Source of the DNA: Beijerinckiaceae bacterium
Lineage (GTDB): Bacteria > Pseudomonadota > Alphaproteobacteria > Rhizobiales > Beijerinckiaceae
Length of the DNA stretch: 64,000 bases
Assembly (NCBI GenBank): GCA_947454485.1
Contig: CANGJJ010000005.1
Coordinates: 62,001 to 126,000 of the forward strand
Direction: 5' to 3'
Shown here: positions 16,877 to 52,374 of the stretch, piece after piece
Layout: the number at the start of each line of letters is the position of its first letter
How positions within the stretch are numbered: position 1 is the first letter of the stretch
The notes under the pieces: model-generated
The model's database searches: none
Seen by the model: the letters and a program-made list of their open reading frames with translations, nothing else
What the model was told of the DNA's origin: nothing
Program-made: the position numbers and the translations under genes

Positions 16877-17041
16877 CCTTCTCCCAATGGGAGAAGGTGC
16901 CCGCGGAGCGGGCGGATGAGGGGATCGGGTGTCCGCCCAGAGAGGCTCACCCAAACAGAGCCTCCTCCTGAAAGTCTCGATCCCCGCCTCAGTCGGCATC
17001 CGCCGACAGCTCCTCCCACTGGGAGGAGCGGGTGCCTCTTC
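16877..17041 (-). repeat. Composite palindromic intergenic repeat, copy 1
   Basis: 165-bp element, near-identical in inverse orientation to 50976-51141. It contains the palindromes ccttctcccaatgggagaagg and ctcctcccactgggaggag, and the core cgatccccgcctcagtcgg. It fills the 320-bp gap between gapR and the DUF1244 gene. ORFs across it are chance translations. Confidence 0.9.
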
Positions 17042-49730: not shown

Positions 49731-49881
49731 TTCAGCCTCGATACTTGACCTGCGACCATAGGGACCCAAGCGGGTAAATGATCAGTGAAGACAGACCTGA
49801 AATAGCCTCGTCAGCGTTAATTCTTTCTCTTGGCAGCGCCCGCCTCTCAAGGCAGTGTGGCCCCAAGGACCTGAAACAGCC

Positions 49882-50817
49882 ATGGATCGCTTCGACCTCA
49901 AAGCCTCTGCCCTGCCGCTGAGCAGCCCGGATTTCGGGACGCCCTGCGCGCCTGAGCTTGCGCGCCCGCTTGAGCTGATCGACCCCGCCCAGAGCCCCGG
50001 CCCGGTCGTGGTCTCCTCGCCCCATTCGGGCGCCATTTATCCGGCCGCCTTGATCGCGGCCTCCCAGCTCGACGCTTTTACCCTGCGCCGCTCCGAAGAT
50101 GCCTTTGTCGATCAACTCCTGAGCAGCGCGCCCGAGCTTGGTGTGCCTTTGCTCAAAGCCCATTTTCCGCGTGCCTATCTCGATGTGAATCGCGAGCCCT
50201 ATGAGCTTGATCCGCGCATGTTCGACGGGCCGCTGCCAAGCTATGTGAACAGCCGTTCTCTGCGTGTGGCTGGCGGGCTTGGCACGATCGCGCGCGTTGT
50301 GGGCGAGGCCAAAGACATCTATCCGCGCCGCCTGCCGGTGAGCGAGGCTTTCGCGCGGATTGAGGCACTCTATGTGCCGTGGCATCGCACATTGCGCGGC
50401 GTGATGGCGCGCGCCCATCGCCTGCATGGGCAGGCCGTGCTGATCGACTGCCACTCCATGCCCTCGCATAATGGCCGCGCTGAGCGCATCAAGACCGATA
50501 TTGTCTTGGGGGATCGCTATGGAACGAGCTGCGATCCTGCCGTGACCGATGCTGCCGACAGCGTTTTGAGCTCATTGGGCTATCGCGTCTCACGCAACAA
50601 ACCCTATGCAGGCGGCTTCATCACCGAACATTACGGCGACCCGGCGATGGGCTGGCATGCGCTGCAAATCGAAATCAACCGCGCGCTCTATATGGATGAA
50701 GCCACGCTCGAACCCCTGCCCTCTTTTGAAGACCTCAAAGGCCATCTGCATCAGATGATCGCGCAGATTGTGGAGGTTGTGGACAGACCCGGCCAGCGGC
50801 GCCTCGCGGCGGAGTGA
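49882..50817 (+). CDS. N-formylglutamate amidohydrolase-family protein
   Basis: About 311 aa from MDRFDLKASALPL. Motifs: VVVSSPHSGAIYP (metal His), LKAHFPRAYLDVNREPYELD, AVLIDCHSMPS and AGGFITEHYGDP. HutG-type hydrolase fold. It is divergent from cpdR. No histidine-utilisation genes flank it, so the physiological substrate is not certain. It is distinct from the shorter copy at 17399. Confidence 0.9.
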   Translation: MDRFDLKASALPLSSPDFGTPCAPELARPLELIDPAQSPGPVVVSSPHSGAIYPAALIAASQLDAFTLRRSEDAFVDQLLSSAPELGVPLLKAHFPRAYLDVNREPYELDPRMFDGPLPSYVNSRSLRVAGGLGTIARVVGEAKDIYPRRLPVSEAFARIEALYVPWHRTLRGVMARAHRLHGQAVLIDCHSMPSHNGRAERIKTDIVLGDRYGTSCDPAVTDAADSVLSSLGYRVSRNKPYAGGFITEHYGDPAMGWHALQIEINRALYMDEATLEPLPSFEDLKGHLHQMIAQIVEVVDRPGQRRLAAE

Positions 50818-50880
50818 AGGGCCCTTGCGGGCGGCAGTCGGCAGATCGGCAGTGGGCAGTCGTGTGCGGTGATGGTGCCC

Positions 50881-50947
50881 CACTCCGCCAACACACGATC
50901 CCCTCATCCGCCGCCATCCGGCGGCACCTTCTCCCACTGGGAGAAGG
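50881..50947 (+). repeat. Partial copy of the composite intergenic repeat
   Basis: Matches the right-hand module of the element (cgatcccctcatccgcc, hairpin, ccttctcccactgggagaagg) but lacks the left module. It precedes the complete copy by 29 bp. Confidence 0.85.
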
Positions 50948-50975
50948 ATGACGAAGGATTGCTACAAACTAAAAA

Positions 50976-51141
50976 GAAGAGGCGCCCGCTCCTCCCAGTG
51001 GGAGGAGCTGTCGGCGGATGCCGACTGAGGCGGGGATCGAGACTTTCAGAATGAGGCTCACACTGGGCGAGCCTCACTCCGCCAACATCCGATCCCCTCA
51101 TCCGCCCGCATCCGCGGGCACCTTCTCCCACTGGGAGAAGG
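50976..51141 (+). repeat. Composite palindromic intergenic repeat, copy 2
   Basis: 166 bp. Nearly identical to the reverse complement of 16877-17041, with differences mainly in the middle. Contains cctcccagtgggagg, gctgtcggcggatgccgac and ccttctcccactgggagaagg. Confidence 0.9.
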
Positions 51142-51154
51142 AAAACCCGGCCCC

Positions 51155-51242
51155 AAAAAGAAAAGAGGCCGCGGTGAGGCGGCCCCAAGTCAAGGGAGGA
51201 AACGCCCAAAGGAGGGCATTTGCGCCCCGACATGCGGGACGC
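51155..51242 (-). ncRNA. Small RNA, suhB/MmgR-like, copy A
   Basis: Minus strand. A promoter with TTGCAA (51272-51277), 17-bp spacer and CATATC (51249-51254) precedes the predicted start near 51242. The RNA has a 5' hairpin, a small gccc/gggc hairpin, the single-stranded anti-Shine-Dalgarno stretch TTTCCTCCCTT, and a terminator stem ggggccgc/gcggcctc followed by ttttcttttt. Layout and motif resemble the alphaproteobacterial suhB/MmgR (alpha-r8) family, and the gene is upstream of an inositol-phosphatase-family gene. Exact ends are inferred. Confidence 0.72.
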
Positions 51243-51365
51243 GAGGGGGATATGGCTGCATTTGCAGATGATTGCAAGTGCAAACAGCGAAGATTCGCAC
51301 ATTTTGGGAATTCTAACGTAGCGGGAGGGTTAATCGACCGCTCACGGCACCTTTTAAGGTACCCC

Positions 51366-51456
51366 AAAAGAAAGGAGGCCGCCGGCAAGTGCACAGCGGC
51401 CCCAAGTCTAGGGAGGAAACGCCCAAGAAGGGCAAGCAACACCGAGGTGTTGCATA
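51366..51456 (-). ncRNA. Small RNA, suhB/MmgR-like, copy B
   Basis: Minus strand. Promoter TTGCTT (51486-51491), 17-bp spacer, TATACA (51463-51468); predicted start near 51456. 5' hairpin gcaacacc/ggtgttgc, then gccc/gggc hairpin, TTTCCTCCCTAGACTT, and terminator stem gggccgc/gcggcct with ctttctttt. The shared core with copy A is ccaagtc-aggga-ggaaacgccca on the plus strand. It could base-pair with ribosome-binding sites of target mRNAs. Confidence 0.74.
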
Positions 51457-51576
51457 GGCATATGTATAATGCTGCATTGCACAAAAAGCAAGAGCTTTTT
51501 TTGGGTTCCTGCAGAACGGCGCAGACAGGCCCTTGCCGGTTCATGTATGTCTGGCCACCAATCTACGGGAGCAGCC

Positions 51577-52374
51577 ATGAAGCCGGTCGATTTTGCCCAT
51601 TTCGTTGAAGATCTGGCCCGAACATCCGGCGAGGCGATTCTCCCCTTTTTTCGCACGGCCATCGGCGCCGACGACAAAGCTCCGGGCGGCGTTTTTGATC
51701 CTGTGACAGAGGCGGACCGCGCCGCTGAAGCTGCGATGCGCCGTCTCATCACGCAGGCCTTTCCCCATCACGGTATTATCGGCGAAGAATTCGGCAATCA
51801 GAATGAAGATGCTGAATGGGTCTGGGTGCTCGATCCGATCGACGGCACCAAGAGCTTCATCTCCGGCATGCCGGTGTGGGGCACATTGATCGGCCTGCAG
51901 CATCAAGGCACGCCTTGCTATGGTGTGATGAACCAACCTTTCACACGCGAGCGCTTTACCGGTGACGGCAAAAGCGCCTCATGGCGCGGCATGGATTTGC
52001 ATGGGCAGATGAGTGAGCGCCGCTTGCATGTGCGCGCCTGCGAAAATCTTGCGCAAGCAACTTTGATGACAACCCATCCTGCGCTTCTGGCAGAAGGCAC
52101 GCTCGCACCTTATCGCCGCGTGGAAGAGCAAGTGCGCCTGTCGCGCTATGGTGGTGATTGCTATGCCTACTGCATGTTGGCCGCTGGCCATGTTGATCTT
52201 GTCATCGAGAGCGGATTGAAGCCTTTCGACATTGTCGCTCTGGTGCCGATCGTTGAAGGCGCTGGCGGTGTGATCACCAGCTGGGATGGTGGCAGTCCTG
52301 CCAAGGGTGGCTCTATCATCGCCTCTGGTGACAAGCGCATTCATGAGCAAGCTTTGAAGCGCCTCAACGCCTGA
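51577..52374 (+). CDS. hisN: Inositol-monophosphatase-family phosphatase (HisN type)
   Basis: 265 aa from MKPVDFAHFVED; the ORF-track start is 36 codons upstream. Family motifs: HGIIGEEFG, WVLDPIDGTKSFISGMPVWG and SGLKPFDIVALVPIVEGAGG. The sequence form and the neighbourhood with cpdR and the hutG-like gene match the histidinol-phosphatase branch (histidine biosynthesis) in this order; a SuhB-like inositol phosphatase role cannot be excluded. Confidence 0.85.
   Translation: MKPVDFAHFVEDLARTSGEAILPFFRTAIGADDKAPGGVFDPVTEADRAAEAAMRRLITQAFPHHGIIGEEFGNQNEDAEWVWVLDPIDGTKSFISGMPVWGTLIGLQHQGTPCYGVMNQPFTRERFTGDGKSASWRGMDLHGQMSERRLHVRACENLAQATLMTTHPALLAEGTLAPYRRVEEQVRLSRYGGDCYAYCMLAAGHVDLVIESGLKPFDIVALVPIVEGAGGVITSWDGGSPAKGGSIIASGDKRIHEQALKRLNA

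Follow-up and report, generated by a model that had tools for sequence, protein, structure and literature searches.

The minus strand at positions 51155–51491 of the window, the 64,000-nucleotide stretch of Beijerinckiaceae DNA that was analyzed as a whole, very probably carries a tandem pair of trans-acting sRNA genes of the suhB/MmgR (alpha-r8, Sis) family (probability about 85%). The family, its core motif, and tandem copies have already been described, and the pair is an ordinary, well-supported further member; the fresh point is a PhaR control site that is kept by the first copy only. The upstream gene is referred to as copy 1 and the downstream gene as copy 2, and expression of the pair in the host organism is predicted from the sequence.

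Both copies matched the Rfam covariance model RF00519 (suhB/MmgR; gathering threshold, 41 bits) over its full length (model positions 1–77), copy 1 with 60.4 bits at 51440–51361 and copy 2 with 58.6 bits at 51224–51151. The fold z-scores were −5.8 for copy 1 and −5.6 for copy 2, and 0/200 shuffles were equally stable. With both Rfam scores above the gathering threshold and with these z-scores, the locus is more than a chance occurrence. Among 53 aligned copies, the anti-Shine-Dalgarno 10-mer and the preceding GGGCG were invariant, and six pairs of the terminator stem showed two-sided changes that keep the pairing. A preliminary description of this DNA had reported two minus-strand sRNA-like stretches, assigned them to suhB/MmgR (alpha-r8), and proposed a covariance search with the Rfam suhB model. 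Each element that it listed was located on the minus strand, and the assignment was confirmed by the two scores and by the compensatory changes in the terminator stem. AbcR (alpha-r15) identity, which calls for two anti-Shine-Dalgarno motifs per RNA, was ruled out because each RNA has a single 10-mer.

The copy 1 gene spans 51361–51456 on the minus strand, with a predicted transcript of about 90–96 nt. Its promoter (51463–51491) consists of a −35 box, TTGCTT (51491–51486), a 17-nt spacer, and a −10 box, TATACA (51468–51463), and a PhaR/AniA-type operator in the spacer, TTTTTGTGCAATGCAGCATTA (51467–51487), is a perfect match to WNWDDNYGCRNYGCRNHHWNW. Folding gave a 5′ hairpin (51436–51453) and, in agreement with the Rfam alignment, a weak GCCC/GGGC hairpin (51421–51433); these are followed by the 10-mer TTTCCTCCCT (51410–51419), the core of the family (PMC12559287), and by a Rho-independent terminator (51366–51403) identified by folding and covariation. 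Copy 2 (51155–51242, minus strand; predicted transcript of about 88 nt) has a promoter at 51249–51277, in which TTGCAA (−35, 51277–51272) and CATATC (−10, 51254–51249) are also 17 nt apart. By the same means, its 5′ hairpin was placed at 51222–51242 and its weak GCCC/GGGC hairpin at 51204–51217, with TTTCCTCCCT at 51193–51202; the Rho-independent terminator (51155–51186) has its stem at 51186–51165 and a TTTTCTTTTT tail. At about 96 and 88 nt, the two predicted RNAs exceed the 77-nt MmgR somewhat, because the RF00519 model starts after the 5′ hairpin. The sequence of this hairpin varies within the family, and a hairpin is usually present (mean fold z-score of −1.8 over 137 copies). The 5′ hairpins of the two copies do differ, as had been noted earlier along with a possible difference in targets or stability; however, since the 10-mer is common to both copies, it suggests that the main difference between them is when each is made and not which targets it has.

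A HisN-type histidinol-phosphatase gene (51577–52374, plus strand; PF00459) is divergent from copy 1. It scored 324.6 bits with TIGR02067 (cut-off, 275 bits) and 86.5 bits with NF008027 (cut-off, 332 bits), so that the earlier placement of this gene in the inositol-phosphatase family was correct as to family, but a true suhB gene next door was rejected. The characteristic neighbor of the alpha-r8 family is not on this inositol-phosphatase side, as had been supposed, but on the other side, where an N-formylglutamate amidohydrolase (FGase) gene (49855–50817, plus strand; PF05013, 247 bits) is convergent with the sRNAs and a CpdR-type response regulator gene lies beyond it. The FGase gene is the usual neighbor of alpha-R8 genes (PMC12559287), and 91 sRNA-bearing loci contain it. 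The order HisN-copy 1-copy 2-FGase(-CpdR) was found again in relatives, and the pair is also present in named relatives, among them Beijerinckiaceae and Hyphomicrobiales metagenome-assembled genomes. In relatives whose neighboring HisN gene is about 83% identical to that of the window, the identity of the FGase gene (49855–50817) is only about 60%. A dispersed palindromic repeat with a CCTTCTCCCANTGGGAGAAGG core occurs in the window at 50877–50948, 51071–51142, and 16877–16897; the interval from the FGase gene to copy 2 holds two of the repeats, with 90% identity over 72 nt, and a third in inverted orientation (50989–51039). Downstream Rfam matches to MIR1437 and MIR1858, at 40 bits against thresholds of 168 and 137, were rejected and traced to these repeats.

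The promoters of the two copies had been described as matching. Their 17-nt spacing is equal, but the spacer sequences are not the same, and the PhaR-type operator is confined to copy 1. No promoter was called when the pair region was scanned with strict E. coli-type sigma-70 criteria, so the promoter calls rest on conservation: the putative −35 and −10 boxes of both copies are weak and become recognizable by comparison with relatives (CTTGC...17...CATATT). None of the 21 bases of the copy 1 operator departs from the PhaR consensus published for S. meliloti, and 16 of the 21 are the same as in the mmgR site that PhaR binds there (PMC12542648). The single mmgR gene of S. meliloti had already been described with a PhaR dyad in its promoter spacer (PMC8401924, PMC12542648). 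The YGCRNYGCR operator is absent from the copy 2 promoter, where only TGC-N4-GCA palindromes were found. The PhaR consensus matched four sites in the 64-kb window against 0.64 expected, and about 50 in the genome against 23 for the reversed pattern.

The operator split was compared across FGase-linked loci. Among single copies, 60/71 have YGCRNYGCR at the promoter position, a frequency to be set against 4.5% in random windows. In the 14 FGase-linked tandem loci, which come from the genus of the window and near relatives and mostly from one genus, the operator is present in every first copy (14/14) and in no last copy (0/14); the Fisher value of 5e-8 for this split overstates independence, because the 14 loci may descend from a single ancient duplication or a small number of them. 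In further tandem arrays (Bosea, Ancylobacter, L016, L020, and L089) the operator pattern is different, so the first-copy-only rule is not general.

With somewhat less than even confidence, we read the alpha-r8 pair in this Beijerinckiaceae genus as a two-channel device, in which copy 1 would be PhaR-gated and copy 2 PHB-blind with the same anti-Shine-Dalgarno core. The copies could instead be redundant dosage duplicates that make the same RNA for the same targets at similar levels, the promoter differences being inconsequential; the 10-mer is identical, the RNA bodies are on average 93% identical within loci, and multi-copy sibling sRNAs such as Qrr share overlapping targets (discussed in PMC12559287). 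However, the copies of a locus are much less alike in promoter and leader (61% identity) than in the RNA body, and across species these upstream parts are conserved according to rank: the best match of promoter plus leader was in 26 of 28 cases the copy of equal rank elsewhere, and it was in no case the other copy of the locus. This pattern suggests that the duplication is old and that the promoters have stayed different since. Along with the retention of the operator by the first copy alone in all 14 loci, this makes redundancy rather unlikely. The RNA bodies are only slightly more alike within loci than between them (90%), and their homogenization was considered; the most similar body was in most cases that of equal rank in a close species, so that gene conversion was not demonstrated.

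A decaying copy 2, leaving copy 1 as the sole working sRNA gene, would agree with its slightly lower score, its shortened terminator loop, and two non-standard pairs relative to the model. It is nevertheless improbable, since copy 2 retains the 10-mer, the 5′ hairpin, and a terminator with a good T tail, and its promoter position is conserved across species. Open frames of 132–196 codons cross the segment, as would be expected if it were protein coding or a 5′ or 3′ UTR element of the neighbors and not free-standing sRNA genes, but these frames matched no Pfam family, the sRNAs are opposite in strand to both neighboring genes, each copy has its own terminator, and members of the family are proven sRNAs, which leaves this explanation with hardly any likelihood. 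If the two-channel reading is true, uptake genes would be repressed at a constant base level with a storage-dependent increment, and the promoter split in 14/14 tandem loci would be the selected feature.

In the proposed mechanism, the two promoters would drive separate leftward transcription of the copies, each stopping at its own terminator, and each RNA would display the single-stranded 10-mer UUUCCUCCCU between the weak hairpin and the terminator. Pairing of this 10-mer, together with Hfq, to purine-rich ribosome-binding sites (GGGAGGAA) would repress translation, chiefly that of genes for solute uptake and carbon catabolism. As the PhaR (AniA) operator lies in the promoter spacer, PhaR is expected to repress copy 1 in the absence of PHB, and titration of PhaR by PHB granules would release it; the output of copy 2, which lacks the operator, would not depend on PHB. 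A likely interpretation is that the two RNAs share a targeting core and that one of them is under the PHB-storage sensor and the other outside its control. The blocking of translation starts, as proposed in the preliminary description, is the mechanism shown for the same 10-mer in Caulobacter SisA, where it pairs with the ribosome-binding site and repression was shown with compensatory mutations (PMC12559287).

The genome encodes Hfq, and its use by the RNAs in the host organism is a prediction, as are the targets. Candidate targets were picked by pattern search for perfect pairing, in which GGGAGGAA, which pairs without mismatch with the eight central bases of the 10-mer, had to stand 1–9 bases before ATG; GGGAGGAA-N(1-9)-ATG occurs at 22 sites in the genome, and the reversed pattern at 0. 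TctC-type solute receptors account for 6 of the 20 plausible candidates, one of them just under the Pfam cut-off (rough hypergeometric value of 6e-5, assuming about 3,150 genes), and ABC-transporter parts and ring-hydroxylating oxygenases are among the others. The candidates include TctC-family genes at C4:44951 and C5:208780 and a gene of the chromate-transporter family at C17:14964. This candidate set, a prediction only, resembles the SisA regulon of transporters and metabolism (PMC12559287). TctC (tripartite tricarboxylate transporter receptor) matches number 118 in the 3.29-Mb genome, a large expansion.

Two profile models found no match to a PhaR gene in the assembly; most relatives have PhaR. 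The best match in the assembly to phaA from a same-genus relative is only 45% identical, and for this reason the phaA-phaR locus is probably missing as a block from the draft. PhaC and two phasins are encoded in the genome, and both phasin promoters have PhaR-type sites, one of which was also recovered by the genome-wide consensus search. True absence of PhaR from the organism is considered less likely, because an assembly gap fits better with phaA missing too and the phasin sites kept. PhaR control of copy 1 in the host is therefore put forward on the basis of the operators and with the phaA-phaR locus apparently absent from the assembly.

The alpha-r8 family was present in 54/61 genomes searched, and its copies often stand in tandem in the same genus. 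Four copies are present in this genome, arranged as two tandem pairs, of which the second lies at 395350–395616 of contig C1, between acetyl-CoA-synthetase/GNAT-like and LUD-like genes (named by reading the sequences and not by profile search). In five relatives, the sRNA copies have a relative of the acetyl-CoA-synthetase/GNAT-like gene next to them, and in two of these five they also adjoin a relative of the LUD-like gene. The second pair is without a clear 5′ hairpin, and its downstream copy has a PhaR-type motif (TGCGGTGCA), with none in the upstream copy. At this locus in relatives, the partner copy has diverged to below the Rfam cut-off.

Three known systems were compared with the pair. 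AbcR1/AbcR2 (alpha-r15) are likewise tandem Hfq-dependent anti-Shine-Dalgarno sRNAs, acting on transporter mRNAs, and are partly similar to the SuhB RNA (PMC7143759), but they are about 114–120 nt long, have two anti-Shine-Dalgarno motifs, and adjoin lsrB at another locus. SisA-D of Caulobacter crescentus (alpha-R8) have the exact UUUCCUCCCU core, several siblings, the FGase neighbor for sisA, and promoters unrelated among siblings (PMC12559287); the Caulobacter siblings lie at separate places, whereas the window copies are in tandem, and a PhaR site is not discussed for sisA-D in that study. The promoter split bears on why alphaproteobacteria retain several alpha-r8 siblings, a question raised in PMC12559287, and the pair adds a directly testable comparative observation in that the targeting core is kept in both duplicates and the PhaR operator in one. 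MmgR of Sinorhizobium meliloti (RF00519) is a 77-nt RNA in single copy, unlike the two pairs per genome found here and the added predicted 5′ hairpin of the window copies, and it shares with them the covariance model, the 10-mer, the terminator, and the PhaR/AniA dyad between the −35 and −10 boxes (PMC12542648, PMC8401924).
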